Source: Paraescarpia echinospica
Lineage: Eukaryota; Annelida; Polychaeta; Sabellida; Siboglinidae
NCBI GenBank assembly: GCA_020002185.1
Contig: CM034538.1
Span: 66,053,389 to 66,117,388, forward strand
Direction of reading: 5' to 3'
DNA length: 64,000 nt
A model generated the notes under the pieces. That model was not told the DNA's origin. It saw nothing but the letters and a program-made list of their open reading frames with translations, and made no database searches. This document shows, one piece after another, positions 10,269 to 57,408 of the stretch; the stretch's first letter is position 1; every line of letters starts with the position of its first letter. The translations under genes were made by a program, and so were the position numbers.

Positions 10269-10274
10269 TCGGCC

Positions 10275-10807: not shown

Positions 10808-10928
10808 TTGACAACATTAAACAAATACAGAAAAATACATTTGTAGCATAAATTCGATTTTAAGCCCGTCTGCGAAGCGATTCCCGCGGAAAATAAAATT
10901 TTAATGAGCTAGGCGATCACGTGGTATC

Positions 10929-15024: not shown

Positions 15025-16820
15025 CTAAGTATTCGAGAGATACTGGTACTCCCGTTTGTCATACGGATTGAGTCCGTTAAGCGTAAACTGCAGCGTCTCA
15101 CAGATCTTCCTCAGTTTGTTGTTCTCCTGTTCCAGCCTCAAGCTCTTCTCTTCCAACATCTTCATCCGGTCGTCGGAGAACTTCGCCGTATTCGTCCTCC
15201 GTCGCAGCTCCAAGATCTCCGTCGTCAACTCCTGGTTCTTGTCCTGCAGTTCGACGATCATGTCGACAAACATCTTCCATTTCTCGTTCGTTTTTGGCGT
15301 CGACCCGACCGACTGACGTTCACCGGAAGTAGGTCGAACCACGTGGATGCTCGTCAAGCTGTGTCCTTCGTCGTGGCATTCCGAAGTCGACGTGTCTGGA
15401 GAGTTTGTGCAGCCCGAGTCTTTGTCGGAACTGGAGTGTCTGTGCCCGAACGCTGCCAGTGAGCGCGATGATCGCTCAAACTCTGCCCGTGTGCTGTGTC
15501 GGTGTAGACGTTCAGCAAATTGCTGCTTCGGGACGCTTCTCCCGACCTGCATGGCAGACCGACTCAAGTTACCGGAGGAGTGTAGGCGAGACTTGTGTGG
15601 GGAGACGTCGGATGACGGCGGCACGCACCATTTGTCCCGAGATGTGTTCTGAGAGCTGCCTTTGTCGGGCATACTGCGACGAAGTTTGTCGCCGCGCCGG
15701 AAGAACGAGAAACCAAGCAGTGTTTTGCTGCGCCCAAGTGTTGCAGACGAGCGGTGTTTGTCGTTTCGATTAAACGTCGTGTCTGTTTCGCTTGATGTGG
15801 AACGTCTCGGTGTGACGGGTTCACAGCTTTCTGACTCGGATACCATGGGGAAGTCAAGAACTGAAGCTGATCGCTGGGAACCGTTACAACTGTTATGTCT
15901 ACCGCCATTTCTTGTGCTGTGATCACGTGATCTATCATGGAGATCCGACGTGGCAGAAGCTGAGGATGTATGTTGTGGTAGGGTAGAACTGCGGCGCTTC
16001 GGCGACGACATACTTGCCATGGGGTTAACCCAACTGTTACGCAAAGCTTCACCGTCGTGTATTCTGTAATAACTAGAACAGTTGGACACAGATCTGCTGA
16101 CGTGAGCTGCAGAACTCTTGGCAGCTGGTTCGTGTTCTTGCAATGATGCTCTCTGTAGCTTATTTGTTTCCCGTGAAACCCTCATAGCTACATCCACAAT
16201 GTTCTCACCAGTGCTGCTCATGCTGCTGCTGCTACCGTGGCGGGGGTTTGTCGCACCTTCCCGTGGGCGGAGAACCGCTGACGTCGTCTGCAGCGCTTCA
16301 ACCTCTTGCTCCAGGTGTTTGATGTGTTGCTGCGACGCTTGCTGTATTGACTCAATCTTCAGCTTCAGCTGTTCTTTCTCTGCAGTGACGCTGGTGGTTA
16401 GCTTCTCCGCACGCAGAGAGTTCTCCTTCTCGTTAGCGTGCTTCTGTTCCAGGGCCAGTATCTGTCTCTTCTGTGTCTCTGTCTGCTGCAGTATCGATGC
16501 CATCTGTTGCTGCTGCTTGGCGATCTCATGTCTTCTCAACAACCTGCTCTCTTTCTTTATCGTCTCAATGCGCTTCTCAAAGTCGTCTGACAACTGCTGC
16601 TGAAGTTTCTTTCGTTGTTCGTTTGTCTCCTTCTGTAGCTCAATTGTCTTCGTCCGCAGTTCCTTTCCCAATTCCGACTTCAACTTCTCCAGTTCTTGTT
16701 TTGCTTCTGCCAGCCTCTGCAGTGTAGTGTCTAGTTCAACTCCAAGAGATTCGTTTTCCATTTCCAATTTTGTGATTTCAGATACCATTGTCCCATTCAG
16801 CTCCTCTGAAATGGGAAGAC
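15025..16820 (-). CDS. CCDC88: CCDC88-like gene, exon 13 (terminal)
   Basis: 1796 nt, acceptor GTTTCAG, stop TAG at 15025-15027. Encodes residues 431-1028. It has coiled coil to about 611 (KLEMENESL, Gln-rich KQQQQ), then a long tail rich in Ser, Arg and His, including GFSFFRRGDKLRRSMPDKG, and a terminal coiled coil (WKMFVDMIVELQDKNQEL ... LRLEQENNKLRK) ending EYQYLSNT. Vertebrate CCDC88 proteins carry a far longer coiled coil at this point; here one large exon replaces it. Confidence 0.92.
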
Positions 16821-19800
16821 CTGAAACAGGACAACAGACGTTTGGGCAGTGCTATAAGTCATTATGAATACAAATGCATAAAGGAACTAAAACAACCAAT
16901 GATCGTATAATTCCTTATTGACAATAGTCATTAATATTGTGCTCTACAAATTTTATCCATGACAGAAACTGATATATATATTCGAGTAAATAATGTAATT
17001 TGTACTTGTCATACATAATAACACATTTTAAAAACATATGTAGCTATTCATAGCAAAATGCTAGCAATTTATATATATTGATTTCAGTAAATTTATTTAG
17101 TTTTTTTACAAGAACAAGTGTAATATCTATACCAAATAATGTGAGTGCACATGCACCACACGCGCTTCTGTGTGTGCACTGCCTGTTCTAGTGCTATTCA
17201 TTCTGTATATAATGATTTCTTACTACTGTTACCTGTATTGCCAACTAAGTGAGTCTGACTGCCACTTAGTAGATCTGAGGACGAGTAACTGAGTAGTTTT
17301 CGCACTGTGCTGCGACTGCCGAAGCCTTCCTTCAGTCGGCTGCGTTCAAACTCAAGCTGCGAGTTCTCCTCAATTAGTTCCTGGGCCTTCTTCTCCATTG
17401 TCTGCTTCTCCTGCAACAACAAATCACGGTTGACTGCCCGTGTCCTCCCAAGTCATGGTTGATTGCACACATCCTCTTTCTATGTGCATTTGCTTCCTTC
17501 GACCAGTTGGCGATGTATTTCCAAAAACACAACAATAGCTATTTAGAGTTATTTACGGGCATGATTTTGATATGGCTTTTCTGAATGGCGAAAAGTTCTT
17601 GTGTATCCCTGCCTTGAGATGGCTGACTTGAAATATCACATTGCACCAGAACGGTGAGGTTCAGTCACTTACACAGTTGACCTCATCGAGTGAGGTCTGA
17701 GTGTGAGTGAGGTCAGCTATGAGTGAGTCGACTCGTTTCTGACTCATCTTCAGCTGGTCGGCCATCTTGAGTCTCGCCTCACTCAACACATCGTTGTCTG
17801 CGCGCAACTCCTGCAACACGAGTAGTCGTAGAGCAGTGTCATGTGACATGTGAAAGTGAGAGTTTAAGTGTGGTTTTAACCACTGGTGCCAACTGTGAAT
17901 GTTTACCCAACTGTGAACGTTTACCCAACTGTGAACGTTTACCCAACTGTGAACGTTTACCCGATTGTGAACGTTTATTTCACAGTTTATCTGTAGGTCT
18001 TATGGTTTACATGAAAGTGTTATGGCTCGACTATAACTCATATCTTACTGGTATGTCTTCTAATGTACTGAAATTGTTATGGTTTACCCATAGGTCTTAT
18101 GGTTTACCTGTATGAGTTATGTTTACCTGTAAGTACAGTTTACCAATAAGTCTTATAATTAACTCATAAATCTTATGATTTACCTGTATGACTTATGTTT
18201 ACTTGTATGTCTTATGATTTACCTGTATGACTTATGTTTACCTGTATGACTTATGTTTACCTGTATGATTTATGTTTATCTGCATGACTTATGCTTACCT
18301 GTGACTTATGTTTATCTGTATGTCTTATGTTTACCTGTATGGTTTATGTTTACCTGTTTGACTTATGCTTACCTGTATGGCTTATGTTTACCTGTTTGAC
18401 TTATATGTTTACCTGTATGTCTTATGTTTATCTGTATGTCTTATGTTTACCTGTTTGACTTATGCTTACCTGTATGTCTTATGTTTACCTGTTTGACTTA
18501 TGTTTACCTGTATGTCTTATGTTTAACTGTTTGACTTATGTTTACCTGTATGTCTTATGTTTATCTGTATGTCTTATGTTTATGTTTATCTGTATGTCTT
18601 ATGTTTACCTGTTTGACTTATGTTTACCTGTATGTCTTATGTTTACCTGTTTGACTTATGTTTACCTGTATGTCTTATGTTTACCTGTTTGACTTATGTT
18701 TACCTGTATGTCTTATGTTTACCTGTTTGACTGATGTTTACCTGTATGTGTTATGTTTACCTGTATGACTTATGTTTACCTGTATGTCTTATGTTTACAA
18801 ATTATGTCTTATGTTTATCTGTATGTCTTATGTTTACCTGTTTGACTTATGTTTACCTGTATGTCTTATGTTTACCTGTTTGACTTATGTTTACCTGTAT
18901 GGCTTATGTTTACCTGTATGTCTTATGTTTACCTGTACATCTTAGGTTTATCTGTTTGACTTATGCTTACCTGTGACTTATGTTTACCTGTATGTCTTAT
19001 GTTTATCTGTGTCTTATGTTTACCTGTTTGACTTATGTTTACCTGTATGTCTTATGTTTACCTGTTTGACTTACGTTTACCAGTGACTTATGTTTACCTG
19101 TATGTCTTATGTTTATCTGTTTGACTTATGTTTACCTGTATGTCTTATGTTTACCTGTTTGACTTATGTTTATCTGTATGTCTTATGTTTACCTGTTTGA
19201 CTTATGCTTACCTGTGACTTATGTTTACCTGTATGTCTTATGTTTACCTGTATGGCTTATGTTTACCTGTTTGACTTATGTTTACCTGTATGTCTTATGT
19301 TTATCTGTTTGACTTATGCTTACCTGTGACTTATGTTTACCTGTATATCTTACGTTTACCTGTATGTCTTATGTTTACCTGTTTGACTTATGTTTACCTG
19401 TATGGCTTATGTTTACCTGTTTGACTTATGTTTACCTGTATGTCTTATGTTTATCTGTATGTCTTATGTTTACCTGTTTGACTTATGTTTACCTGTATGT
19501 CTTATGTTTACCTGTTTGACTTATGTTTACCTGTATGTCTTATGTTTACCTGTTTGACTTATGTTTACCTGTATGTCTTATGTTTACCTGTTTGACTTAG
19601 GTTTACCTGTATGTCTTATGTTTACCTGTTTGTCTGATGTTTACCTGTATGTCTTATGTTTACCTGTATGTCTTATGTTTACCTGTTTTACTTATGTTTA
19701 CCTGTATGTCTTATGTTTACCTGTTTGTCTGATGTTTACCTGTATGTCTTATGTTTACCTGTTTGACTTATGTTTACCTGTATGGCTTATGTTTATCTGT

Positions 19801-22800
19801 ATGTCTTATGTTTACCTGTATGTCTTATGTTTATCTGTATGTCTTATGTTTACCTGTATGTCTTATGTTTACCTGTTTGACTTATGTTTACCTGTATGTC
19901 TTATGTTTACCTGTTTGACTTATGTTTACCTGCATGTCTTATGTTTACCTGTTTGACTTATGTTTACCTGTATGTCTTATGTTTACCTGTTTGACTTACG
20001 TTTACCTGTATGTCTTATGTTTACCTGTATGTCTTATGTTTACCTGTTTGACTTATGTTTACCTGCATGTCTTATGTTTACCTGTTTGACTTATGTTTAC
20101 CTGTATGTCTTATGTTTACCTGTTTGACTTACGTTTACCTGTATGTCTTATGTTTACCTGTATGTCTTATGTTTACCTGTTTGACTTATGTTTACCTGCA
20201 TGTCTTATGTTTACCTGTTTGACTTATGTTTACCTGTATGTCTTATGTTTACCTGTTTGACTTACGTTTACCTGTATGTCTTACGTTTACCTGTATATCT
20301 TACGTTTACCTGTATGTCTTAAGTTTACCTGTTTGACTTATGTTTACCTGTATGGCTTATGTTTACCTGTTTGACTTATGTTTACCTGTTTGACTTATGT
20401 TTACCTGTATGTCTTATGTTTACCTGTTTGACTTATGTTTACCTGTATGTCTTATGTTTACCTGTTTGACTGATGTTTACCTGTATGTCTTATGTTTACC
20501 TGTATGTCTTATGTTTACCTGTATGTCTTATGTTTACCTGTATGTCTTGTGTTTACCTGTATGTCTTGTGTTTACCTGTATGTCTTATGTTTGACTGATG
20601 TTTACCTGTATGTCTTATGTTTACCTGTATGTCTTATGTTTACCTGTATGTCTTATGTTTACCTGTATGTCTTGTGTTTACCTGTATGTCTTGTGTTTAC
20701 CTGTATGTCTTATGTTTACCTGTTTGACTTATGTTTATCTGTATGTCTTATGTTTACCTGTTTGACTGATGTTTACTTGTATGTCTTATGTTTACCTGTA
20801 TGTCTTATGTTTACCTGTATGTCTTATGTTTACCTGTATGTCTTGTGTTTACCTGTATGTCTTGTGTTTACCTGTATGTCTTATGTTTACCTGTATGTCT
20901 TGTGTTTAAAGTATGTCTTGTGTTTACCTGTATGTCTTATGTTTACCTGTTTGACTTATGTTTATCTGTATGTCTTATGTTTACCTGTATGTCTTATGGT
21001 TTATCTTGAGTTTTATATATTTTGTTCAATTTGATGTAGGACACATACATTCCTTACGGTTTGGGGTGTTTTGGCGAAGATATTTTGTACTATGGGGTCT
21101 AAGCTGAGTTTCTCAAATGATATGGAAATAACCATTCTTCAGTTCAAAATACATTGGAAAATTATTTATTGAAAATATCTTATCTATGCAAAGTCAGCTG
21201 CAAGAAAACCTTTAAAAACAGTAGACATAGATATCCAGATGGCCCCTGCTAATGTGGGCTTATTTGCGATCTAAGGGATTCCTGATACTAGTCTTACTAG
21301 TGAGAACCAATCAGGGTTGGCACATTTGTCATGACCTACTGTAAGATGTTACACAAAAAGTGCAACTGTAATAAATGTGTAATAAATTGTGTAGCAGTAG
21401 TCATGTCTTCTCATGCAAGTTCAACAGATTTATCCAAACATTATTTCTGATTCTATAGCTTTCACAGATTTACCGATGTCATATAATTTTCTACCAACAA
21501 TTGAAATTGTAACTAGAACTTAAAATCACACGTTTAGCAAACAAAAACAGAAGTTATGGCTGATAAATTAACTGCTCAGTTACCAACTATTGCATGGACA
21601 GAAAAAACACCAATTAATATGTTCTGGCTAAAGCTACCTCTAGACCAAAGAGTTTATATGACGTATATGGATGGTTACAATGGTACTATATAATACCAGC
21701 TACAATGTTACTAAATAATGCCAAGCTGCAAGTCAGCATGCACTCCCTTGCTGGCCACTGTTGGTGCAATCAGCCATAGACACACACACAATTTCAGTCT
21801 CATATATACAAAACTAATGGAGATGTGCCTGGTCATAAAGAATGATCGAGATCTACACTCTATTTTATAATAGATGTTGAATGTAATATTAGCACAAATA
21901 CTTTCACTTACCTCAACTCGACCCTTGTAGAACCCCAGATGACTCAGCTTCTCTTTGTACTTGCCAATCTCTCTCTCACACCACCCCACCTTGGCTGCCT
22001 ACAACCACACAACACTGTCACAATCTCTCTCTCACACCACCCCACCTCGGCTGCCTACAACCACACTACATTGTCACAATCTCTCTCACACCACCCCACA
22101 CCCCACCTTGGCTGCCTACAACCACACTACACTGTCATAATCTCTCTCACCCCACCCCACCTTGGCTGCCTACAACCACACTACAACACTGTCACAATCT
22201 CTCTCACACCACCCCACCTTGGCTGCCTACAACCACACTACACTGTCACAATCTCTCTCACACCACCCCACCTTGGCTGCCTACAACCGCACTACATTGT
22301 CACAATCTCTCTCTCACACCACCCCACCTTGGCTGCCTACAACCGCACTACATTGTCACAATCTCTCTCTCACACCACCCCACCTTGGCTGCCTACAACC
22401 ACACTACACTGTCACAATCTCTCTCACACCACCCCACCTTGGCTGCCTACAACCACATTACACTGTCACAATCTCTCTCACACCACCCCACATTGGCTGC
22501 CTACAACCACACTACACTGTCACAGTCTCTCTCATACCATCCCATCTTGGCTGCCTACAACCTCACAACACTGTCACAATCTCTCTCATGCCACCCCACA
22601 TTGGCTGCCTACAACCACACAACACAGTCACAATCTCTCTCACACCACCCCACCTTGGCAGCCTGCATTCACACTACACTGTCACAATCTCTCTCTCACA
22701 CCACCTCATCTTGGCAGCCTACAACCACACAACACTGTCACAATCTCTCTCATGCCACCCCACATTAGCAGCCTACAGCCACACTACATTGTCACAATCT

Positions 22801-25800
22801 CTCTCTCCCTCATACCACCCCACATTGGCAGCCTACAACCACACTACATTGTCACAATCTCTCTCCCTCATACCACCCCACATTGGCAGCCTACAGCCAC
22901 ACTACATTGTCACAATCTCTCTCCCTCACACCAACCCACATTGGCAGCCTACAACCACACTGCATTGTCACAATCTCTCTCCCTCATACCACCCCACATT
23001 GGCAGCCTACAGCCACACTACATTGTCACAATCTCTCTCTCACACCACCCCACATTGGCAGCCTACAGCCACACTACATTGTCACAATCTCTCTCCCTCA
23101 TACCACCCCACATTGGCAGCCTACAACCACACTACATTGTCACAATCTCTCTCCCTCATACCACCCCACATTGGCAGCCTACAACCACACTACATTGTCA
23201 CAATCTCTCTCCCTCATACCACCCCACATTGGCAGCCTACAGCCACACTACATTGTCACAATCTCTCTCTCTCACACCACCCCACATTAGCAGCCTACAG
23301 CCACACTACATTGTCACAATCTCTCTCTCCCTCATACCACCCCACATTGGCAGCCTACAACCACACTACATTGTCACAATCTCTCTCCCTCATACCACCC
23401 CACATTGGCAGCCTACAGCCACACTACATTGTCACAATCTCTCTCCCTCATACCACCCCACATTGGCAGCCTACAACCACACTACATTGCCACAATTCCT
23501 CTCCCTCATACCACCCCACATTGGCAGCCTACAGCCACACTACATTGTCACAATCTCTCTCTCTCACACCACCCCACATTGGCAGCCTACAGCCACACTA
23601 CATTGTCACAATCTCTCTCTCTCATACCACCCCACATTGGCAGCCTACAGCCACACTACATTGTCACAATCTCTCTCTCATACCACCCCACATTGGCAGC
23701 CTACAGTCATACTACATTGTCACAATCTCTCTCTCATACCACCCCACATTGGCAGCCTACAACCACACTACATTGTCACAATCTCTCTCTCTCACACCAC
23801 CCCACATTGGCAGCCTACAGCCACACTACATTGTCACAATCTCTCTCTCTCATACCACCCCACATTGGCAGCCTACAGCCACACTACATTGTCACAATCT
23901 CTCTCTCATACCACCCCACATTGGCAGCCTACAGTCACACTACATTGTCACAATCTCTCTCTCATACCACCCCACATTGGCAGCCTACAACCACACTACA
24001 TTGTCACACTCTNNNNNNNNNNNNNNNNNNNNNNNNNNNNNNNNNNNNNNNNNNNNNNNNNNNNNNNNNNNNNNNNNNNNNNNNNNNNNNNNNNNNNNNN
24101 NNNNNNNNNNNNNNNNNNNNNNNNNNNNNNNNNNNNNNNNNNNNNNNNNNNNNNNNNNNNNNNNNNNNNNNNNNNNNNNNNNNNNNNNNNNNNNNNNNNN
24201 NNNNNNNNNNNNNNNNNNNNNNNNNNNNNNNNNNNNNNNNNNNNNNNNNNNNNNNNNNNNNNNNNNNNNNNNNNNNNNNNNNNNNNNNNNNNNNNNNNNN
24301 NNNNNNNNNNNNNNNNNNNNNNNNNNNNNNNNNNNNNNNNNNNNNNNNNNNNNNNNNNNNNNNNNNNNNNNNNNNNNNNNNNNNNNNNNNNNNNNNNNNN
24401 NNNNNNNNNNNNNNNNNNNNNNNNNNNNNNNNNNNNNNNNNNNNNNNNNNNNNNNNNNNNNNNNNNNNNNNNNNNNNNNNNNNNNNNNNNNNNNNNNNNN
24501 NNNNNNNNNNNNNNNNNNNNNNNNNNNNNNNNNNNNNNNNNNNNNNNNNNNNNNNNNNNNNNNNNNNNNNNNNNNNNNNNNNNNNNNNNNNNNNNNNNNN
24601 NNNNNNNNNNNNNNNNNNNNNNNNNNNNNNNNNNNNNNNNNNNNNNNNNNNNNNNNNNNNNNNNNNNNNNNNNNNNNNNNNNNNNNNNNNNNNNNNNNNN
24701 NNNNNNNNNNNNNNNNNNNNNNNNNNNNNNNNNNNNNNNNNNNNNNNNNNNNNNNNNNNNNNNNNNNNNNNNNNNNNNNNNNNNNNNNNNNNNNNNNNNN
24801 NNNNNNNNNNNNNNNNNNNNNNNNNNNNNNNNNNNNNNNNNNNNNNNNNNNNNNNNNNNNNNNNNNNNNNNNNNNNNNNNNNNNNNNNNNNNNNNNNNNN
24901 NNNNNNNNNNNNNNNNNNNNNNNNNNNNNNNNNNNNNNNNNNNNNNNNNNNNNNNNNNNNNNNNNNNNNNNNNNNNNNNNNNNNNNNNNNNNNNNNNNNN
25001 NNNNNNNNNNNNCCACCCCGCCTTGGCAGCCTACAACCTCACAGTACTGTCACAATCTCTCATATACCACCCCGCATTGGCAGCCTACAACCACACAATA
25101 CTGTCACAATCTCTCTCACACCATTCCACCCTGGCTGCCTACAACCACACTACATTGTCACAATCTCTCTCTCACACCACCTCATCTTGGCAGCCTACAA
25201 CCACACAACACTGTCACAATCTCTCTCATGCCACCCCACATTGGCAGCCTACAACCACACAACACTGTCACAATCTCTCTCACACCACCCATCTTGGCAG
25301 CCTACAACCTCACAGTACTTTCACAATCTCTCATATACCACCCCGCATTGGCAGCCTACAACCACACAATACTGTCACAATCTCTCTCACACCATTCCAC
25401 CCTGGCTGCCTACAACCACACTACATTGTCACAATCTCTCTCTCACACCACCCCACATTGGCAGCCTACAACTACACTACATTGTCACAATCTCTCTCCC
25501 TCTCCCTCTCCCTCTCCCTCTCCCTCTCCCTCTCCCTCTCCCTCTCCCTCTCTCTCTCTCCCTCTCTCTCATACCAACCCACCTTGGCAGCCTACAACCA
25601 CACAACACTGTCACAATCTCTCTCACACCACCCCACCTTGGCACCCTACAACCACACAACAGTGTCACAATCTCTCTCACACCACCCCACCTTGGCTGCC
25701 TACAACCACACAACATTGTCACAATCTCTCTCACACCACCCCACCTTGGCTGCCTACAACCACACAACGCTGTCACAATCTCTCTCTCACACCACCTCAC

Positions 25801-28800
25801 CTTGGCTGCCTACAACCTCACAACACTGTCACAATCTCTCTCATACCACCCCACCTTGGCTGCCTACAACCACACAACATTGTCACAATCTCTCTCATAC
25901 CACCCCACCTTGGCACCCTACAACCACACAACACTGTCACAATCTCTCTCACACCACCCCACCTTGGCACCCTACAACCACACAACACTGTCACAATCTC
26001 TCTCACACCACCCCACCTTGGCTGCCTACAACCACACAACATTGTCACAATCTCTCTCACACCACCCCACCTTGGCTGCCTACAACCACACAACATTGTC
26101 ACAATCTCTCTCACACCACCCCACCTTGGCAGCCGACAACCACACAACACTGTCACAATCTCTCTCTCATACCATCCCGCTTTGGCAGCCTACAACCTCA
26201 CAACACTGTCACAATCTCTCTCTCATACCATCCCACCTTGGCAGCCTACAACCACACAACACTGTCACAATCTCTCTCTCATACCATCCCGCTTTGGCAG
26301 CCTACAACCTCACAACACTGTCACAATCTCTCTCTCATACCATCCCGCTTTGGCAGCCTACAACCTCACAACACTGTCACAATCTCTCTCTCATACCATC
26401 CCGCTTCTACAACAACTGTCACAATCTCTCTCTCATACCATCCCGCTTTGGCAGCCTACAACCTCACAACACTGTCACAATCTCTCTCTCATACCATCCC
26501 GCTTTGGCAGCCTACAACCTCACAACACTGTCACAATCTCTCTCTCATACCATCCCGCTTTGGCAGCCTACAACCTCACAACACTGTCACAATCTCTCTC
26601 TCATACCATCCCGCTTTGGCAGCCTACAACCTCACAACAGTGTCACAATCTCTCTCTCATACCATCCCGCTTTGGCAGCCTACAACCTCACAACACTGTC
26701 ACAATCTCTCTCTCATACCATCCCGCTTTGGCAGCCTACAACCTCACAACACTGTCACAATCTCTCTCTCATACCATCCCGCTTTGGCAGCCTACAACCT
26801 CACAACACTGTCACAATCTCTCTCTCATACCATCCCGCCTTGGCTGCCTACAACCACACAACACTGTCACAATCTCTCTCATACCATCCCGCATTGGCAG
26901 CCTACAACCTCATAACACTGTCACAATCTCTCTCTCATACCATCCCGCTTAGGCAGCCTACAACCTCACAACACACCTTGGCAGCATACAACCACACAAC
27001 AGTCACAATGTGGCATGGCTCCATCCAGCAACATCCATCCATCTATAATATCTTCCATCCTTTGTATGTTAAATAGCTTCAACTGTTAGTTCAACACCAT
27101 TTTTTCTAAACTGTACTTTAAATAAGATTGATATATAATGTAATTAACTATATGCTACATATTAAGCAATTACCCATGACCTGATACTGATAACTTCACA
27201 AGCACTAAAGATTATGCAAATTACTCAGAGTAAATAACAATTTGAAAAAACCAAGAAACAATTCTGCATATCACGACGCCATCTTTAATCTGTGTCATAG
27301 TCAAGCAACTGACTACAAAGACCTGGTAAACAAATAGAATAACTCAATCTAATATACTTGACACACTAAAATGTCAAATAGAAATGCTGTCTAACCTTTT
27401 CTCTAACCGCATCCAACTCATCTCTGTAATTGCGTGCAGCCTTGGCGTCCTTACTCAGCATCAAGTTCTGCAATACAACAACAACATGAGCTCACCTATG
27501 TATTGAAGAGAGTGTGAGAGATTTAACATCAAGTGGAACTGACTCTTGGTGGGAGTAATATTATAATAATTGTGTTTTTAATTCAGACAATAAAATCAGT
27601 GTCCTTATAAAAAATAAAAAATACAGTAAATAAATAAATAGTCAAACCTTGCTTTATGTCCCACATTATTTCCATACTAGGCTAGAGCTGCCGATTGCCA
27701 ACTGCACCATATGCGAAATAGTTTGTTATTTGGCGAAAATAAAATTGAACTCTTTGCCAAATTGGTGAAACATTACTGTGGTCACTATTATTGACATTAT
27801 CAGCAGTATATCACTGGATTATTCACTGCCCGCCTCCCTTGGAGTTGTTTTAAACAACAGCTCATCACGCCGACCCAAATAATAGATCACTAATCCCTCC
27901 ATTTACCCAAGTCCACAGACAATGGTATGGGTTATTAGGGCGTATCACGATACATGGCGAGATTCCATGCGAGTGGAGCCGACTGGCGACATGCACAATC
28001 ATTGCCCACTGATTCTAATATTGCGGAAGCCAGGAAACAGTTGTTGACGTTTAGTTTATCGGTTTATTGTTCCTTTGTTAAATGTGTTATGGCGTTGTCA
28101 CTTCAGTTTTATATGAATTATACATCAGGGGAATTGCAGCAGCCAATGGCAGTCATATACTGAAATTTGTTATTGATCCCAACTTTTTTTTGTTTAAATG
28201 AAATAGATACTAATATTTATTTAATGTAACAAGAACCAGTACTTATTAAAATATTAAATATAATATATGGATTACATAACGTGATTAACAATTATATAAG
28301 AAATGGGAGTTAAAACGAGATGCATCGGTTTATCGCTTGTCATAAAACCGCAAATTTTTAAATGTTATAAGTTGTTATTTCAAAACAGTTCGGTAACCAT
28401 TTATATTTGAAAAGTTGCCTAAATGCATATAATCACCAAAAAGTATGCATTAGTTCAATAACATGTCATACTGGATGAAAGAATGCATAGTTGTCAATTG
28501 TTAACAAGGTCGCCAATAAGTTCGATCTAATTCATGTATGTTTGATGTGTCATCATCAGAACACATTATAAATGGAAAGACACATGTTAAAAACCTCTTT
28601 TACAATTTAGAGCCTGAATCACCCAGGCCAGGACTTTCAGTCTAGTATTTCAGTACATAACTAATCTGGGGAATTAATTTACTTAAGTAATCAGTTACTG
28701 AAAAATCAAATCATGTTTTCAAGTAGGTTATATGTTTATGCTATGTTTTAATCACTGCAGGGCAACAAGAGTAGGTGACTACATGTTTAGGCATAGATTG

Positions 28801-31800
28801 TTTTGAATTATTTGGCATGTTATTTTCTCTATATTTCAAGTATTGTTATTAGTTTATTATAGCAGTGTCAGTTTTACAGATGATGTTTGACTTTTAATAA
28901 TTGAAAAATCTGCCGATAATTTATTGTGTGTTTGTTAAATTAACAGTGGGTGTTCAACTTTCTTTTTTATAATTAAACAATGTTTAAACTATATTGGGTG
29001 TTTGTCAGCTTGACAGGTGTTTGGCTTTCTTTTATATATTAACAATATTATAAAGTTTGATTTGATTAAATTGGGTGTTTCGTTTTCTTGTGAGCATCCT
29101 ACCCGTGAATAATATAATGTTCTATATATATATATCGTGTTTTGCCTAAGTGTCTGCTAAAAAAATGGCTGAAGAAAATTTCATTTGATTAAAGAAAAGT
29201 GTGACTTGTAGCCAAATTGGCTAAACAAATATTACGCCCAGTGCTAGTCTAGCCATATATAGTAAAGTATGGGAAATTAGTCCTGCTAATACGGTCACCT
29301 TGCTATTTAGTCACTTTCGCCCTACGGTTTCGCCCTACGGTTAATAGTGAGATTCCACTGTACAGGACAATTTGAGACAGCTATACTACTATTGCTATAC
29401 TAACCTGTAACCTAAATGGCACAAGTTTTCCACACCAAATTGTTGAATTAATAAATGGTCTATCGAATATGCAAAACTACCTCTGCTTTGATGCTGCTGA
29501 GACTGGCTTTTGTGTCCTTGAGAACGTTCTTCAAGTCCAGCACCATTCTGTCACGTTCTTGTCTACAACAGTAGATTTAACAACATCTAAAGAATGAAGT
29601 TTATTTGATTCACACAAAATATAATTCTTCCTTTTGGTTTGAGACATCAATTTTAATTTGTATACGTAATAACCATACATATATATGACACACACATCAC
29701 ACCACATGCATGCCCTCATACACACACATCACACCACATGCATGCCCTCATACACACACATCACACCACATGCATGCCCTCATACACACACATCACACCA
29801 CATGCATGCCCTCATACACACACATCACACCACATGCATGCCCTCATACACACACATCACACCACATGCAAGCTCTCATACACACACATCACACCACATG
29901 CATGCCCTCATACACACACATCACACCACATGCATGCCCTCATACACACACATCACATCACATGCAAGCCCTCATACACACACATCACACCACATGCATG
30001 CCCTCATGCACACACATCACACCACATGCATGCTCTCACACACACACACATCACACCACATGCATGCCCTCATACACACACATCACACCACATGCATGCC
30101 CTCATACACACACACATCACACAACATGCATGCCTTCATACACACACATCACACCACATGCATGCCCTCATACACACACACATCACACAACATGCATGCC
30201 CTCATACACACACATCACACCACATGCATGCCCTCATACACACACATCACACCACATGCATGCCCTCATACACACACATCACACCACATGCATGCCCTCA
30301 TACACACACATCACACCACATGCAAGCTCTCATACACACACATCACACCACATGCATGCCCTCATACACACACATCACACCACATGCAAGCTCTCATACA
30401 CACACATCACACCACATGCATGCCCTCATACACACACATCACACCACATGCATGCCCTCATACACACACATCACACCACATGCAAGCTCTCATACACACA
30501 CATCACACCACATGCATGCCCTCATACACACACATCACACCACATGCATGCCCTCATACACACACAGTCATACCACATGCATGCCCTCATACACACACAG
30601 TCATACCACATGCTTGGCCTCATACACACACAGTATGTATGTTCATCAATATGAGTGAAGAGGTTCATCAGACTGGATATGGATGATTCAAATGAGTTAT
30701 ATTTTTACTTATCTCACAGACGGTTTACCTTTTTGTTCCGTGACGTCACGGGAAAAATGGTAAGAGAGCCCCAACATTTAATAATAGCCGCTGAAGGATA
30801 AGATAACAGATCTAAGAAAGACACTGGAGGATGACAAGTTGAGGGAGAAGGCTGATCTCTGGGAGAACTGGGAAGAGATGTGAACAAGCCTCATAAAGGG
30901 AACTGTGAGGAAGGATATGTATAAATGTCAACCAATCACATTATGACTTAATAAATATCATACAAAGACAATCTTCACAAAACAGTGGCGCCACATGGTG
31001 GACTACTGACCTATCCACTGTGTGGCGCCACTGTAAAGCTGTTGTGTTTGTAGTAACAGAATACTATTAAAATCAAACCCTGCAATTGAAGTTTCCTATA
31101 ATCTTTCTCAAGCTAATACAAATTATCGGTAATGATTTGCATAGTACACAACTTCAAGTACAGCCGTATTTAGCAAACCAACATGAATTTCAACTTGAAC
31201 AATTATCAGGATCTTCTTATGAGAGTATTGACACAGTAATATCTGATCTCGGTTTGTAAATGATTACATCTTCTTGAAGCACTTTGATGTTGAATACTGT
31301 CGAAATGTCATTTGATAAGATACAACAATCTTGAACCAATAAACCATCAATCACTGTCAATATATATTAAGCTATATAACTCACACAATGTGTTATCTTT
31401 GACAAGTCCAGTATGGGGTAAATTACAGTTACAATACTTCACAGTGGTGTACAGTGGAGACAGGCAAATGTTGCGCATGTCCAGCGAGATCTACCTCATA
31501 TGAGATCATCCTCAACCTTGCGTCCAGGACGATAATAGGTTATTTGAATACAATGTCTGCTCTCGTATTGACCATGTGACAAATAGTAGCTGTTTATGCA
31601 CACGAGATAGATAGCTTTTCACGAAAACGATTACCGTCAATTGATCGTTGTAATACTTCTGTCAAACATTTTTTCTAACAATTTGATGCCATAAAATGGA
31701 TTAAATAAGTCTTGTAAGCAAGAACTTAATCATGTTTCTGTTAAGACAGTATTGATGTATTTGACCACATCCAACATAAATCTACCCATTTAGGCCCAAA

Positions 31801-34800
31801 TCAATCGGACTTAAATTTTGTTTTTAATGATATATCCCCATACATGTCTCCTTTGTGAAATCTCTAAATCTTCACAAATGTCCAAACTGAGTGTGTGTTT
31901 GTATGTATGTGAGTGAATGACTGAGTGCGTCTGTGCGTGTGTGCGTGTTTATGTGTATACACATAATAATAATACAGGTTCTTTTACCATGCGATCTCTA
32001 ACTAATAGTTAATCAATATGCTCACACTATAGAAACACTATAAAACAATTAAAATAATATATAAATTAGTTATAAATTAAATAATTTACAAGATAAATAA
32101 AAAATAGATTAATAAATTAACAAGTCACTAAAATGTTCTATAAATAAATTTTGCTATTGTCCACCATAAGTTCGTTTAAATAAATATGTCTTCAGGTGAC
32201 GTTTAAATAAAACACAGACGGACCATCTCGTAGAGTCAGTGGCAGTTCATTCCATTTGGCAGAACCAGTTGACCATACTGATGCAGTCACTAAGTCTCTG
32301 GACACCGCACTCCAAGTCACCAGGTATGTGGGGACAGTAGGATGTGTATATCTGAAGATCATCTGCAAATTGATGATATTCCACAGAGTGCCTCGTTAGT
32401 ATGTCCTGCATTGGTGCTGTGTACACAGTGAACAACAACTGACCTAACTGCAAGCCTTGTGGAACACGTATCTCACAGGGCGTTCTTCAGATGAATCCAC
32501 CCCAATCCGGAGATGCTGGGTACGATCCAACATGTACGAACCGAACCATTCAAGTTCTGCACCAGATATTCCCAGGTGGCTATGCATAGTCTCTAGTAGG
32601 ATAGCGGCAGTAATTGGTGATATCGTGCTGCACTCTCATGAAAGCCGTTTCAGTGTTGTGTCGGGGTTTTGTATGCCAATTGTAGCTCCTCATGAAGGCC
32701 ATTGTCACTTAGATGTTGAATAAGTCATTTGGCAGTTACCTTTTCCAAGACACGAATTGCAAACTTGAAACTGGATGGTAATTTTTCAGCGTGTTTCGAT
32801 CCAAGGTCGGTTTTTTTCAACAGCGGCGTTATGACAGCCTTCTTGAGTTCTCGCGGAACAGTGCCCGACTCGAAAGACATATTGATAAGATGAGTCAGTA
32901 TTTGAATATGAGCAGGAAGAGTACTCTTTAGTAGCGATGTAGGTAGAGGGTCCAAGCATGATGACTTGGGTTTAGCATCCTGGATAACATTCTGTACTTC
33001 ACACATACTTGCAGCATACATTTCAGTCATAGGATGTTCAACTACTCGCTGTTTCGCAGTTTCAACGTTGCTCATGTTTGTTTCCGAGGCATCAATTTCA
33101 TTCAACATTTTTGCAATGTTTCCTTCAAAAAAGTTCAGAAACTGGCAACATAATTTCTCCTTTGAATCAGTGTCAGGCAGTTTGGAAGATTTCACATTGA
33201 GCAGGCTGTTCACGGCTTCGAAGGCTGTACTCTGATCGGCATCTTGGAGTAGATTCTGGTAATATTGAATTTTCGCTTGCCGGATCCTCGCGCTGACAGC
33301 ATTACGATGATTCACGTATATTCGTCTGTGTATGTCTAATCCCAAAGCACACCAAATGTTCTAATTTTCGCATTGCATGTAGTACCTCGCAGTACCAAGG
33401 TGGAGTTCTTCTCTTGCGTGGCCGCCGTAGCATTACCTGAGCAATTTCATCCAAAGCCGAATTAACAGCACACGTATATATATATATATATATCAAGAAT
33501 GGGATCCAGATCTGTGGATGATGTATTAAAGCCAGATAAGTTGGAATTGATTTCACTGGTCAGTGTTTCACAATCAACATGTCGAAGGTCTCTTCTGGGT
33601 TGTAGTTTAGCCTGGGGGTATTTCTTCTGGGTTGTAGTTTAGTCTGGGGGTATTTCATGTGGGCTGTGTGCTTGATAGAGAATGTTACTGATTTGTGGTC
33701 AGATATTTCGCTGCTGATCACAGACACTTTGCTGATGATAGGGTCGGTTGCCCGTGAGATGACAAGATCCAAAGTGTGACCAGCCTTGTGAGTTGAACAA
33801 TCAACATATTGATGTAGATCATGTATCTTTAGTAAATCCACCCCTGGTGCTGAACAAATGTCAACATGCAGACTGAAATCTCCCGTGATGACGACTCTCC
33901 CAACAGAAGAAGCCAGGTTAGCAGTCAAGTCATCGAATTCGTCCAAGAACACTGGTATAGGTAACGATGGTGGACGGTATATTGCAAGCACTGTCAGATG
34001 CTTACATCGCACTGTTAAATGCTCGAATGAAGAGTATTCCAGTATTTGTCTGTATAAACGGCAGTTCGGTTTTGTGCACCACCTCTCTTTTCTTTTCTTC
34101 CAACTCTGAAAAATAGCCTGGAAGACACATGTTGATGACTGTAGCAGTGTCTTCTTCGTTTAACCAAGCCTCTGTCACAGGGCTGCCTACCTCACAAAAA
34201 CAATTTTGTAATGAACCCCCCCCCCACATCGCATCCCGCCCCGCTCCCCAGTCCACAAGGTTGCCAATGAAACCTTTCTCTGAAGTAGACAGAGTGACAA
34301 ACCCAGCCTGTTCACTGTGCCTTGAAAGTTACTAATTTAATCATCAAAAGTAGATACTTTGTTTCAACATAATTATTGTGTTGCTACACTGTAACTCCTG
34401 TCTGCAGTTAAGGTGGTTGGTTAGCACTTCAAAGGGATGCTTGTTTAACAACATCCAATAAGTTACATTGTGTTAATTTTTTTTACAGCTGTCAAAGTCC
34501 ATGCATGGCCAGACATGCCCAAGTGATTACATCTGTAAAGCACCACCGTGGGAAAAACTGCACCAGTGAATAGCCAATAATCATCCAAAGAGCTTCTAAA
34601 TTTACAACACACAGAAGGAAACATTAGAATTATTATTAACAGTCAATGACAAAGTTAAATTGTTGTATTTGAATAAAAACCTTTGAATAAAAATATGATA
34701 ATTTTATAGCAATTACAACAATTATAATACTCATTTTATATTCTTTTACAACATTTTATAATTATATTCATAACTTTCAGAAACCATAACTATTTATTGT

Positions 34801-37800
34801 AATTTAATGGTTCTATCTAATGTCATCTTACTATTTCTTTCATTATATAATTCTACACCTGTAAATTTAATTAATATCTAGACGCGCATTAATGACTGAT
34901 ATTTTTGCTGCTGTAATTTCTGTTGAATGACAGATGCAGACATAATAATATGCCAATGAGCCACATGCCAGGCAGTCATCAGCAGGCTGCTGGCAGTCAA
35001 AGTTGTAACATTGTACACAGGCACAGCATTGGATGACATCACCGTACTGACTTTGTAGAACTTGTAGTGGACTAAATATTTGTTGATAAATTGTAACAAA
35101 TGAATGATGACAGTTTCTTCAGGGCATCTCGAGCAGCATTATTTATAGATTTAGCAACTCTTTAATGTGTATCACTTTCTGTAGTGGGATATTTGTATTC
35201 CCGTAATACGGCAGCAGTTTCCGTAATGCTGTAATCTGAGGTGAATTTCCGTAACGATTACAGAAAATCCGTAACGGTAGGCAGCCTTGCTGTAAATATG
35301 GTGACCTCAGCCACCGTGTCAATGATGTGTGTGTGTATATACGACACCCAAGGGAGGCAAGGGAGGCAAGTGAAAGGCTTAGAAACAACTGCCGGTGAGA
35401 CACAGAAACAGAGAGAAGGAAGATTAAACGAGCTAGAAAAGATGGAAAAAACAAAGAGGAAGCAGTGAACGCCCCTTGTTGACGAACTATATACTCTTAG
35501 CAAAAAGGCCTACATAAATTAGAAAGAAAATAAGTTCATGCACTTGGACAATGTCCATCAAGGCCAGTGTGCACTACAAATACATCTGAGATGATGCTTC
35601 CAGTAGCCTGACACTTACAGTTCCTCATGGAGTCCGTGCAGTCTCGTCTTGCACTGAGCGAGTTCCTTCTGTAGGTGGTGGGTCTCTAGGGAGGACGGGG
35701 GACTCAATGGTCCCCTCTTCTCCCCCAACTCACACAGGTAGTAGTCTCGCTCCTGGGAGAGCAGGGACACCATCTGGGAACATACAACACTGTCAGTAGA
35801 AGTAATCCTCCTCGCCATCTTACCAATGTCTACATCATAAGACAGAATGCATGCTTCTGTCTGTCTGCATGTCTGAATATATATATCTCTGTGGGACTGA
35901 AACGTTGTAAGCTTTAACCAGACGATTGCAAATGGCGTCTTTTCTTGCTGGGTAACACTGGAGTAACTCTACTAGTGTGTCACTAGTCAACAGAAATATT
36001 GTTACTAATAGTCTGTTGTTTATACTAGAAAAAAATGTCCCTACTTTGAATGGTGAAACACAGAGTTTCCCGGAGTATTTCATGAATGAGCTTTTTTTAT
36101 GATGTAAAATGTGTAAAGCATCCCAACTGACCCGCATTCCTCATATAACCTCTTACCAATGTGTCTAACAACAGAAACGTGACCCATCACAACGGTTTAG
36201 ATCATAAGGTGCGGTGGTGTCATCTGTGTAAGTAATTGCTGCTTTTTTAACAAGGTTAATTTAGTAAAAAAAACTATTGATAAAGTCCACCATTTTGAAA
36301 ATACAAATCATGCAGCCACCCAGATTGCAACATGTGATGTTTTGTGGCCTATCAAGGTGATATCTTAGTTGTTGTTGTTGTCCTGTCTGCCCATGAGTTG
36401 ACATACCTGAGCGTAGCTGTCACGTTCCTGGATGACACCGTTGAGAATGTTGTAGAAGTTCTTGAACTGTTCGTCTGAATCGAGTCGGTAGTCGACTGAT
36501 ATGGCATGCTGTGGGAGATTGGTGATCTGAATAAACAAATCAGTGTAGAGAGACCATTGAGAGACAATCTTTAATAAGATTGCTATATTGGTTTGTTCGT
36601 CAACGATTATTCTTGATTTCACAATTAATTATGACAAACATCACGTAGACTCGTAGAGTAATAATTTACCTTGTCAAACAATCTTAAACAATCTTTAAAA
36701 GTATCAGTGAAATGACTAACCTATTCAACATCTGATCACTATCCCCCACACTATTTATATTACATTGTTCTCGTACTGATATACATACATTTTATGTACA
36801 CCTAAACATTGTATATAATTACACACATTAAGAACAATGGCTTAAATTAAGCTAAGTACAACTTAAATGACAATTATATTCCCATGTGTTAAATTATAGT
36901 CTACCACTGCTCTATGAAAACAACCACTAAACATGCACATCCTGCCACCATTATATCAATGCATACAATATGCAGCAGGTATATGTGTGCGTCTGTTTGA
37001 TGAATGCTTCAATGAAGTCAGACTACTGGCAAAGAAAACAGCTAATGCATTTGAGCAGCTACATGAAAAGAACCCATTACAACTGGTAAGGCAAATGTCA
37101 AAGCTGTGACTCAAGGTAATTAGAATCTACGTGTTGTAAGTGGTCTGTTTAGTCTAGTTGCCTCTCTAAAATGACATCAAACATGTGTGTGCTATTGTGT
37201 TATAATGAGTAGTGTAATGTTTGATGTCAAGTGTATGTACATGAAATATGATAGATCCCAGCTGAAACCAGTTACCCGGTACCTTTTGTTAGTGCACATT
37301 TTGTAGTGAGAATGTCTGGGTCTTGTTTACAACAAAATGTCAATTTGAAAAAAAAACCTAAATATTTATCTAATATATAGGATTTCTTAAGTTACATTAA
37401 AAGTAGTCTAATTAAGTTATGTGAAAAATAAATATGAAAGTTCTGCAGCATAAATTATGCATTACATATTTTATAAGGTACTTTTAATTAATTGTGTTAG
37501 TTGAGTTTGATCTCATTAGGATAATTTATATAAAAAAGATTTATAATTATGTTTTATGTGTTCCACAATATATGGTCATAAAAGAATCATTTACATCACA
37601 CACAACACACCCATTTGATGTGTTCCACAATGTATGACCACATAAGGATCTTTGATATCACATGACCCACGTGTTTAATGTGTTCCACAATGTATGACCA
37701 TATAAGGATCTTTGATATCACATGACCCACCTGTTTGATGTGTTCCACAATATATGACCACATAAGGATCTTTGACATCACATCACCCATCTGTTTGATG

Positions 37801-40800
37801 TGTTCCACAATATATGACCACATAAGGATCTTTGACATCACATGACCCACCTGTTTGATGTGTTCCACAATGCATGACCACATAAAGATCTTTGATATCA
37901 CATAACCCACCTGTTTGATGTGTTCCACAATGTATGACCATATAAGGATCTTTTATATCACATGACCCACCTATTTGATGTGTTCCACAATGTATGACCA
38001 TATAAGGAGCTTTGATATCACATGACCCACCTGTTTGATGTGTTCCACAATGTATGACCATATAAGGATCTTTTATATCACATGACCCACCTGTTTGATG
38101 TGTTCCACAATGTATGACCACATAAGGATCTTTGATATCACATGACTCACCTGTTTGATGTGTTCCACAATATATGACCACATAAGGATCTTTGATATCA
38201 CATGACCCACCTGTTTGATGTGTTCCACAATATATGACCATATAAGGATCTTTGATACACATGACCCACCTGTTTGATGTGTTCCACAATGTATGACCAT
38301 GTAAGGATCTTTGATATCACATCACCCACCTGTTTGATGTGTTCCACAATGTATGACCATAAAAGGATCTTTGATATCACACGACCCACCTATTTGATGT
38401 GTTCCACAATGTATGACCATATAAGGATCTTTGATATTACAAGACCCACCTGTTTTATGTGTTCCACAATGTATGACCATATAAGGATCTTTTATATCAC
38501 ATGACCCACCTGTTTGATGTGTTCCACAATGGCTTCCTGAACGTGAATGTCGAGTTTAGTGATGATGTCGATGTAGTATTCTTTGCGTGGACACTGCACC
38601 GCACAGCCCAGTAACTGAAGCAACACATGGCTGAGTGCTGCCAGTCCACTCTCTGGCAACATCAAACATACCTTTATTATTATTGTCTCAGAACTAAATT
38701 AATAAAATTATATTATCATCTGAACATATTTCTTTTTAACTGCATTTATCATCCTTAGTTCCCAGGCCAGCATCATCCATACCTTCATTACATTAATCTG
38801 CAGCTCTTTTTCCTGAATGTTCACTAGTGATGGCTGCAAGACAAGATCAAAATATTCAGAAAGAAAACTACTTTCTTGTGAGGTTATTTATAATGACTAA
38901 TGACACTAGCCTCTGTAAACAACACCCTTACTCAGGGGGACCAGATTACCCTCTGTAGACAACACCCCTGATCAGGGCCACCAGACTACCATCTGTAGAC
39001 AACACCCTTGATCAGGGCCACCAGACTACCCTCTGTAGACAACACCCTTGATCAAGGCCACCAGACTAACCTCTGTAAAGAACACCCTTACCCAGGGCCA
39101 CTGCACTAGCCTCTGTAAACAACACCCTTACTCAGGGCCACTGCACTAGCCTCTATAAACAACACCCTTACTCAGGGGCACCAGATTATCCTATGTAGAC
39201 TACACCCTTGATCAGGGCCACCAGACTACCCTCTGTAAACAACACCCTTATTCGGGACCACTGCACTAGCCTCGGTAAACAACACCCTTGATCAGGGCCA
39301 CCAGACTACCCTCTGTAAACAACACCTTTGATCATGGCTACCAGCCTACCCTCTGTAAACAACACCCTTGATCAGAGCCACCATATCACACTCTGTAAAG
39401 AACACCCTTGATCAGGGCCACCATATCAGCCTCTGTAAACAACACCCTTGATCAGGGCCACCATATCACCCTCTGTAAACAACACCCTTGATCAGGGCCA
39501 CCATATTACCCTCTGTAAACAACACCCTTGATTAAGGCCACCATATCACCCTCTGTAAACAACACCCTTGATCAGGGCCACCACATCACCCTCTGTAAAC
39601 AACACCCTTGATCAGGGCCACCATATCCCCATCTGTAAAGAACACCCTTGATCAGGGCCACCAGAATACCCTCTGAAAAGAACACCCTTGATCAGGGCCA
39701 CCAGAATACCCTCTGAAAAGAACACCCTTGATCAGGGCCACCAGACTACCCTCTGTAAAGAACAACCTTGATCAGGGCCACCATGTCACCCTCTGTAAAC
39801 AACAGCCTTGCGCAGGGCCACCATATCACCCTCTGTAAACAACACCCTTGATCTGGGATACCATATCACCATCTGTAAACAACACCCTTGATCAGGGCCA
39901 ATATAATACCATTCTGTAAACAACACCCTTGATCAGGGCCACCACATCACCCTCTGTAAAGAACACCCTTGATCAGGGCCACCATATCACCATCTGTAAA
40001 GAACACCCTTGATCAGGGCCACCAGAATACCCTCTGAAAAGAACACCCTTGATCAGGGCCACCAGAATACCCTCTGAAAAGAACACCCTTGATCAGGGCC
40101 ACCAGACTACCCTCTGTAAAGAACAACCTTGATCAGGGCCACCATGTCACCCTCTGTAAACAACAGCCTTGCGCAGGGCCACCATATCACCCTCTGTAAA
40201 CAACACCCTTGCTCAGGGCCACCATATCACTCTCTGTAAAGAACACCCTTGATCAGGGCCACCATGTCACCGTCTGTAAACAACAGCCTTGTGCAGGGCC
40301 ACCATATCACCCTCTGTAAAGAACACCCTTGCTCAGGGCCACCATATCACTCTCTGTAAAGAACACCCTTGATCAGGGCCACCATATCACCCTTTGTAAA
40401 CAACACCCTTGCTCAGGCATGAGGGCCACCAAAATGTCCTTGTAAATAATAACCTTGCTCAGGGCCTAACCTTGTAAAATGATCATCATAATATTAACCG
40501 AGTAGTAATTCTCTAGTAAGTCAGTCGTATTAGTTAACTTTGTAACTGATGGAGAGATGCTTGGTAGAGTACCGGCCATGGAAGAATTAGAGCCAGAGGA
40601 TCAATACTAATAGGGCAATGGTGGGGACAGAATTCTCATAAAGATGTACTTGATTGACCACTCAATTGCCCCAGTGTGACTATCCCTGATATTATGACAT
40701 TAAGTGGCCAGTACGTCCACTACGATGACCAGTAGATTAATACTTGTGTAGACATTATTGGACAAGAATGAGATAGTGCCAGTAATGTAATAATTACTAG

Positions 40801-52800: not shown

Positions 52801-55149
52801 TAAGTGTAACATGTATTGGTTTAAACTGTCCACACAAGTGTTGTGTAAGTGTAACATGTATTGGTTTAAACTGTCCACACAAGTGTTGTGTAAGTGTAAC
52901 ATGTATTGGTTTAAACTGTCCACACAAGTGTTGTGTAAGTGTAACATGTATTGGTTTAAACTGTCCACACAAGTGTTGTGTAAGTGTAACATGTATTGGT
53001 TTAAACTGTCCACACAAGTGTTGTGTAAGTGTAACATGTATTGGTTTAAACTGTCCACACAAGTGTTGTGTAAGTGTAACATGTATTGGTTTAAACTGTC
53101 CACACAAGTGTTGTGTAAGTGTAACATGTATTGGTTTAAACTGTCCACACAAGTGTTGTGTAAGTGTAACATGTATTGGTTTAAACTGTCCACACAAGTG
53201 TTGTGTAAGTGTAACATGTATTGGTTTAAACTGTCCACACAAGTGTTGTGTAAGTGTAACATGTATTGGTTTAAACTGTCCACACAAGTGTTGTGTAAGT
53301 GTAACATGTATTGGTTTAAACTGTCCACACAAGTGTTGTGTAAGTGAAACATGTATTGGTTTAAACTGTCCACACAAGTGTTGTGTAAGTGTAACATGTA
53401 TTGGTTTAAACTGTCCACACAAGTGTTGTGTAAGTGTAACATGTATTGGTTTAAACTGTCCACACAAGTGTTGTGTAAGTGTAACATGTATTGGTTTAAA
53501 CTGTCCACACAAGTGTTGTGTAAGTGTAACATGTTTGTCATTATTTTCATTTGACAATAACATGATGGCTTTAATGTTTATGCCTAGTCTTTAGGGTCAA
53601 AGTTTCAGTGGCAGACTTGAACGTCACAAGATTAATAACGAGTATGTCCTCCTTCTGCGTTGATCACTGCAGTGCATCGGCGCCTCGTTGATGAAATAAG
53701 GTGGGGATGGAACCTTTGTGGAATGTCACACTTGTGCATTGTGTGCTTTTCCAGTTGGGTGTACCAGCAGCTCTCCAAACGTCTGCCTTATGTAGCCATG
53801 CCTGTTACGTGAGACCCTACAGGAGCATTTTCTTTGTTTTCAAGTGTTGCCTGACCTTGCATTATGTTATGGTATAGTTTTTGCTGCAACAAATCTACAT
53901 AAAAATGAAGTACCTCAAAGTAAGTTTTGATATGTGTGAGAAGGAATGTCCAGTTCTGTAGCCGGGCATTGCTGTCCTTGACCAATCGGTTCACACAACC
54001 ACTTAGTTCCGCCTCTCGTTGGTCACTGCAACACAAGCACCAATTGGTCAGTATAATCCTGGACACACCTTCATGCTATCCCTCCACGTACCACGGTACA
54101 GATGGTTGGTCTGATGTACAGCTAGAGAGACTGATGTCAAGTGACTTGGCAGAGTGTGGGTCTAAAGAAAGAAAGGGGGTTAGGGTTAGGTACAGAAATT
54201 CGCAGACGATACAAAAATGTTCAGAACAGTTAAATCGGATGCAGATAAACATATTTTACAAGATGATCTAGCCAAATTGGTCAAAATAGTCTGAAAAATG
54301 GCAAATGTTATTAATTTTTGGGAAGTGTAAATACATGCACGTAGAACATGGAAAGGTGGATAAAGAGTACATCAGGTAGGATACTATAATGTTCAAAAAT
54401 TAAATTGACAGCTATCTGATGAGGGCGTAGGACGTAGATGGAAAATTGTTGGACTGTCGATAAGCCCAAGTCTTCCTTGTCTGCCTGCCATCTGGAGCTT
54501 GTGGCTTTGGACGGCAATCTTATTAAATCTTGTTAAAAGCTGAAGGTATTTGGAGAAGTTTACTTTCAGTGCCCTCCCCCTGAAGGGGAGAGCACTGAAA
54601 GTATGTGACTCAATACAATGTCAGTACATGAGTAATATCCTTGAGACCAATTCCCCATTTTATGGGCACTGAAATACACCCACCCGCGGTGCAACAAACC
54701 TAATGAATGATCACCATAAGGGTTTTGATCTTTTTAAACTCTTTGCCAAAGTGGATTCTCTGGAGGAGAGTGGCTCAACACTCGACTCTCTGACACAGGT
54801 AGGAGAAACACCTTCACCAAAAGCATATAAAATAGGTAAGTAAATAACTCCGAGTAACTGAATCACATCGTCAGTTGGTAGATGAGAGGCCAATTGACCA
54901 AGAAGGCAATTGAAGGAAGTGAGTGGACCTCGGCACCTGGGGGGAGTTGCACTTTAAATTAACATGTACAGAGCATTTAGGGTATCAAATCATACTTGTT
55001 GGGTAATTAAGGGTTGTTGACATCCCCAAAAGGCTAAAATGCAGTAAATTACAATAACATGTGGAAACAGCTAGGTAGGTGTACATAACTGCACACAAAA
55101 TAAAGGCTAATTTGCTTTTATGTGGAACGATGCAAATATATATACACAC

Positions 55150-55186
<37 letters not shown>

Positions 55187-57376: not shown

Positions 57377-57408
<32 letters not shown>

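Follow-up and report, generated by a model that had tools for sequence, protein, structure and literature searches.

In lancelets, several genes harbour mirages, minisatellite-like tandem copies of an intron–exon boundary for which correct splicing has been reported, among them the globin genes BflGb6 and BflGb9 as well as Adh3, TnC and PGBD5 (PMC3087553; PMC3902484). The mirage of BflGb6 comprises 3 or 6 units of 150-160 bp, and the units of Adh3 measure 10-72 bp (PMC3087553). Here we describe a 64,000-nucleotide stretch of contig CM034538.1 (positions 66,053,389 to 66,117,388) of the siboglinid annelid Paraescarpia echinospica, referred to below as the window, in which intron 9 of a girdin/CCDC88-like gene consists mostly of tandem copies of its own 3′ splice junction. 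As in lancelets, copies of a boundary (acceptor or donor) stand in tandem, many of them retain the AG or GT, and the units of a cluster evolve in concert (PMC3087553). The annelid locus differs from the lancelet cases in its phylum and scale, with about 70 copies of mostly 54-60 bp, and in combining an acceptor array and a donor array in one gene; arrays of this kind also occur at 5 of 106 sampled exons from two other families. Within the open-licence literature consulted, we found no report of mirages outside lancelets.

Other tandem repeats that touch on splicing share parts of this structure. In human paralogues, internal tandem repeats activate cryptic splice sites, and minisatellite growth alters exon–intron structure as it does here; in those genes new introns can originate from exonic repeats (PMC2812944), whereas in the window an existing junction has been multiplied. 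Among annelids, intron 1 of an earthworm metallothionein gene likewise holds large minisatellites. Their monomers average about 180 bp, duplicated fourth exons are absent from the transcript, and the accessible text of that report does not describe junction copies (PMC12783039).

Intron 9 is mostly copies of its own acceptor

Once the introns, all GT-AG, are removed, the gene's 13 exons, whose boundaries we placed from homology and splice signals, form one open frame of 1028 aa that ends at its only stop. Homologue segments map onto it exon after exon (tblastn with P0011 and P0006-P0010), the best named homologue with full cover being that of the annelid Paralvinella palmiformis (43%), and the related proteins contain the HOOK N-terminal domain (PF19047, Pfam). 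A Pfam search with the partial protein returned a single weak, unrelated match under the cut-off. The joined frame agrees with the exon 9 donor at 27396 that had been assigned in a first-pass annotation made from the sequence alone.

The same annotation had described intron 9 as about 70 tandem copies of its acceptor and the start of exon 10, and we indeed find 70 decoys in addition to the real site at 21998 (Table 1). Because a 1000-N assembly gap interrupts the array, this number counts the visible copies. The AG is intact in 69 of the 71 acceptor-like sites, the exceptions being 26985 (AT) and 26133 (CG). In a typical unit, the terminal ~22 nt of the intron (TGACAGTGTTGTGTGGTTGTAG in the real copy) precede about 34 nt that resemble the start of exon 10; the exonic part is near-identical to the exon and sometimes differs from it, so that the 34 nt first said to equal the exon start are correct in extent but not always equal. 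The proposed unit of 54-56 bp captures the commonest spacings, 54 bp (23 cases) and 56 bp (24), but is too narrow a range, as spacings of 58 bp (14), 60 bp (2) and 53, 57 and 61 bp (one each) also occur, along with 28, 98 and 126 bp, the gap and the exon itself. The tetranucleotide TGAC, a plausible branch-site core, lies within 68 of the 71 sites. Across the genome, the 34-nt unit pattern (at most 2 mismatches) was matched at this locus only, with at least 18 forward and at least 0 reverse matches.

Adjacent units have a mean identity of 0.914, compared with 0.853 over all pairs of 69 units, and thus display the concerted evolution within a cluster that characterises mirages. The unit most similar to the real junction, at 22392, is 98.3% identical to it over 60 nt at a distance of 394 bp. 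The gap inside the array would suit inflation or invention of the repeats during assembly, but the units hold many variants and fall into subfamilies with local order, and comparable arrays are found at other genes on other contigs; we consider an assembly artefact very unlikely. The near-complete retention of the AG might instead point to a selected reservoir of splice sites, in which the copies buffer the mutational loss of any one acceptor. The two AG columns, however, are conserved in 68 and 69 of 69 units, no better than many other columns (66-69 of 69), which gives no sign of selection on the decoys as such, and a rescuing copy would not restore the frame. We give such a reservoir almost no credence.

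When exon 9 is joined to each decoy in turn, 69 of the 70 products (two of which derive from decoys without AG) reach an in-frame stop, and the remaining one enters the gap. Stops follow after 12 to 17 codons for 56 decoys and after 123 codons at the latest. Use of a decoy would leave the array between it and exon 10 in the transcript. The early termination predicted for mis-splicing is therefore borne out by the reading frames, and so is the more specific proposal that the 54-bp units end at an in-frame stop, which is reached after exactly 17 codons from 23 decoys. Judging from these frames, transcripts produced by decoy use should be degraded, and such use is probably minor.

The first-pass annotation had also raised the idea of a copy-number-tunable switch that lowers the output of the gene. 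In such a switch, decoys would divert part of the transcripts to stops and decay, array length would set the diverted share, and output would vary between individuals. The near-universal stops suit this idea, and an intronic array that acts on splicing is known in humans. VNTR6-1 in intron 6 of TERT is, like the array here, a minisatellite of tens of copies with a G-rich sense strand; its unit is 38 bp long, and it has been proposed to act as a splicing switch with decay of the products (PMC11830802). Exon 7 of TERT is about 3.5 kb downstream of VNTR6-1 (PMC11830802), whereas the present array has the splice site and the exon start within its own unit. Although quadruplex motifs occur in the sense strand of our array (29 of the loose two-G and 6 of the three-G type), its G4Hunter scores are modest (mean 0.65 over readable bases; 1.2 or more in 4.9% of 25-nt windows, with N counted as zero). 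Moreover, similar arrays accompany unrelated myosin and kinesin exons, and exon 10 lacks a directly adjacent array in two relatives, so that general minisatellite turnover fits better than a gene-specific device. We do not favour the switch and regard it as unlikely.

The start of exon 10 in the window and in relatives

Of 130 homologues, P0001-P0005 match the last exon only and were excluded (P0001 is the 83% relative). All 125 that cover the exon 9/10 junction align across it without a gap, a set in which many members are isoforms or close relatives and hence not independent. These crossings, together with the open frame, place the start of exon 10 at 21998, in the last unit of the array, where the first reading had put it. 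An additional AG lies within the last 15 nt before 50 of the 71 sites and is absent at the real acceptor, a mild hint that the true site is kept in repair.

Two predicted proteins of relatives, P0131 and P0132, read AAKVGWYEREIGKYKEKL in one uninterrupted frame through exon 10. Both then continue to the same exon end, FYKGRVE, and on to a valine codon, the reading expected of a GT donor. Upstream of exon 10 they contain 16 and 38 in-frame codons that are unlike the unit and end in DSVVCLQ. The intron part of the window's unit reads, in frame, DSVVWL and then a stop; by this match, it corresponds to the old intron end, as a single-copy founder would read. The presence in two relatives of an exon 10 with no directly adjacent array indicates that the array is probably derived in the lineage of P. 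echinospica.

The exon of the window begins with GWC in place of a near-invariant triplet (D/E in 124, K/R in 124 and L/I in 125 of 125 homologues). This substitution, and the unread sequence of the gap, would be accommodated if the first ~27 nt of exon 10 were unused and D-K/R-L-E were supplied by a micro-exon hidden within the gap. The uninterrupted AAKVGWYEREIGKYKEKL of the two relatives, however, assigns GW to this lineage's exon, and the sense strand of intron 9, where readable, contains no canonical-like tetrapeptide. A hidden exon is in our estimation extremely unlikely. We also dropped the idea, prompted by the alignment of the 125 homologues, that homogenisation of the array had overwritten the near-invariant D-K/R-L of exon 10, as both relatives without an adjacent array read AAKVGWYEREIGK. 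Being common to these relatives, GW is older than the array, and the one new residue of the triplet is Cys, which replaces Tyr (TAT to TGT). The corresponding column of the units contains A in 39, G in 29 and T in 1 of 69.

Junction copies at exon 5 and at other genes

Of all 24 splice junctions of the gene, searched against the window, only two have copies: the acceptor of exon 10 gives 73 matches and the donor of exon 5 gives 17, each count including the junction itself. Intron 5 carries 16 donor copies including the real one, with GT in 15 and AG/GT in 13 (the slash marks the junction). The repeated end of exon 5, 22 nt in length, encodes IVEHIKQ, which is similar among homologues. An exon 5 extended to one of the 15 copies downstream would take in a stop in every case, as an in-frame TAA lies within the first repeat. 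The decoy at 38151 reads CAG/GTGAGT, compared with GTGGGT at the real donor, and is nearer the usual donor consensus. Both arrays resemble the dual-specific splice sites of the UBC type in that splice sites recur in each unit of a tandem array; that type is built on an AGGT motif (PMC10809524), which the intron 9 units lack and the intron 5 units mostly contain. At their acceptors, the intron 9 units read TAG/GC or TAG/GG.

We surveyed exons encoding myosins and kinesins in the same genome (70 of 76 and 36 of 128 matches, respectively, mostly from the top of the lists) for copies of each exon edge in the adjacent flank, taken as 1.5 kb or, for kinesin, 600 bp. Exon ends in the survey are the ends of hidden Markov model (HMM) matches, some loci overlap and are not independent, and one locus (L115) was checked on one side only. 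Junction arrays were found at 5 of the 106 exons (211 edges) of this small two-family sample, with copy numbers that include the real site and may be lower bounds owing to flank size (Table 1). By batch, the first 30 myosin exons gave none, the next 40 gave four, 20 kinesin exons gave one, and none was left standing among the last 16 kinesin exons. As controls, the exon 10 and exon 5 arrays were recovered, and exons 8, 9, 11 and 12 of the girdin/CCDC88-like gene showed no junction copies in the survey.

Several further candidates were not counted. The array at L101 has a 13-bp unit and lies inside the intron, with a likelier donor further upstream; the copies at L105 lack a GT donor; the matches at L087 (one of 13 nt) and L099 (overlapping) fall outside the exon edge; and L112 gave a single short match. 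L096, with one imperfect second copy, was borderline.

Some individual loci have features of their own. L070 and L071 are neighbouring myosin exons (C2:77777953-77782487) with a donor array at each, and the L070 unit contains the telomere-like CCCTAACCCTAA. The 66-bp units of L084 stay in frame, and splicing from a later donor would add repeats of 22 aa to the protein; a stop is present in one visible unit.

Other large minisatellites occupy the introns of the girdin/CCDC88-like gene, at 18077-21003, 29688-30632, 38910-40417, 41214-42084 and 52635-53534, and none contains a copy of any of the 24 exon edges; among these intronic minisatellites, two 40-bp arrays look mutually related. Short repeats at 46542-46673 and 59972-60101 (2-3 copies of 51 and 58 bp) lie away from the exons found. 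On the minus strand, fragments at 6149-6114 and 2766-2653 resemble the start of the same gene family (tblastn) and may possibly belong to a tandem paralogue that leaves the window at its low end. Open stretches at 7878-10816 and 32250-34159, also on the minus strand, resemble remnants of a long terminal repeat (LTR) element and of a reverse transcriptase of the long interspersed nuclear element (LINE) type.

Table 1. Features of the girdin/CCDC88-like gene and junction arrays at surveyed exons. TRF, Tandem Repeats Finder.
Feature	Position	Strand	Details
Whole girdin/CCDC88-like gene	15025..63901	-	Exons joined; tblastn P0011, P0006-P0010; homologues with PF19047
Exon 5 (HOOK domain)	38510..38652	-	IVEHIKQ at its donor end; tblastn, joined frame
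Donor array of intron 5	37550..38531	-	~60-bp units, last 22 nt of exon 5 + GTGGGT; TRF, junction search
Exon 9 (NLMLSKDAKAARNYRDELDAVREK)	27396..27467	-	Donor is partner of the array acceptors; joined exon frame
Acceptor array of intron 9, exon-distal block	25013..26985	-	TRF 35.6 copies to 26974, score 2149; final degenerate site 26985
Assembly gap inside array	24013..25012	.	Exactly 1000 N; sequence read
Acceptor array of intron 9, exon-proximal block	21965..24012	-	True intron 9/exon 10 boundary formed by its last unit; TRF 36 copies, score 2881
Exon 10 (AAKVGWCEREIGKYKEKLSHLGFYKGRVE)	21912..21998	-	First 34 nt form the exonic part of the repeat unit; homologue alignment, counterpart in P0131 and P0132
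L070, myosin donor array			28 copies, GT in 28
L071, myosin donor array			47 copies, GT in 36
L064, myosin donor array			17 copies, GT in 16
L055, myosin acceptor array			17 copies, AG in 14
L084, kinesin donor array	C9:4482162-4483613		9 copies of 66 bp, all GT

Origin, splice-site choice and significance

We interpret intron 9 as a mirage, a minisatellite founded on a splice junction and tolerated because the exon-proximal site is used, and place the probability of this reading at about 0.83. The founding unit would have spanned the junction by chance, taking in about 22 nt of intron end and about 34 nt of exon 10. In this lineage, a stretch of 54-60 bp would have been duplicated in tandem, and the array would then have grown and been homogenised through unequal exchange or slippage. 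The spliceosome would keep to 21998, since between this site and the exon 10 donor GAG/GTAAGT the exon is shortest and of normal size (87 nt); exon definition provides a basis for choosing the copy that does so. Occasional use of a decoy would add array sequence and meet a stop, and the transcript would be degraded. The array would then be a tolerated by-product of a minisatellite-rich genome, in which the same process may have given rise to the donor copies of intron 5 and the arrays at other genes.

Several observations weigh against this interpretation. The real acceptor has 8 pyrimidines in 17 positions, the lowest count of the gene's 12 acceptors (the others have 9-13), and 22 of the 71 sites have 8 or more; as the real site does not exceed the decoys in strength, the choice must rest on position. 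The relatives are known from short predicted proteins (P0132 from a 1415-bp contig), and an array further upstream in them is possible. Under a crude model of random founding, 1.19 junction arrays would be expected at the 211 surveyed edges, compared with the five found (P about 0.007), and 0.16 in the girdin/CCDC88-like gene, compared with two (P about 0.012, for a gene chosen for having one). Relative to this model, junction arrays are not depleted and may be enriched; junctions may be favoured founders, or such arrays may be kept. A control points in the opposite direction, as 19 of 139 random 75-nt windows of the flanks had at least 3 copies further out; compared with such windows, exon edges are repeated less often (5 of 211).

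The recurrence of this structure at several other genes suggests that junction minisatellites, described in lancelets in the literature consulted, also arise in a phylum distant from them and may be widespread in genomes with many minisatellites. A stronger version, in which they are pervasive in this genome (about 1 exon in 20 in our sample) and form self-renewing decoy fields whose length sets transcript loss for each gene and individual, seems to us improbable.

The interest of the locus lies in its scale, with more copies than the lancelet globins, in its phylum and in its testability. It constitutes a natural experiment in splice-site choice, since one conserved gene presents dozens of near-identical acceptors and 16 donors with little but position to distinguish them. 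For the lancelet globins, a model has been put forward in which new introns originate from mirages (PMC3087553), and junction minisatellites are a plausible source of both new introns and length-variable expression.

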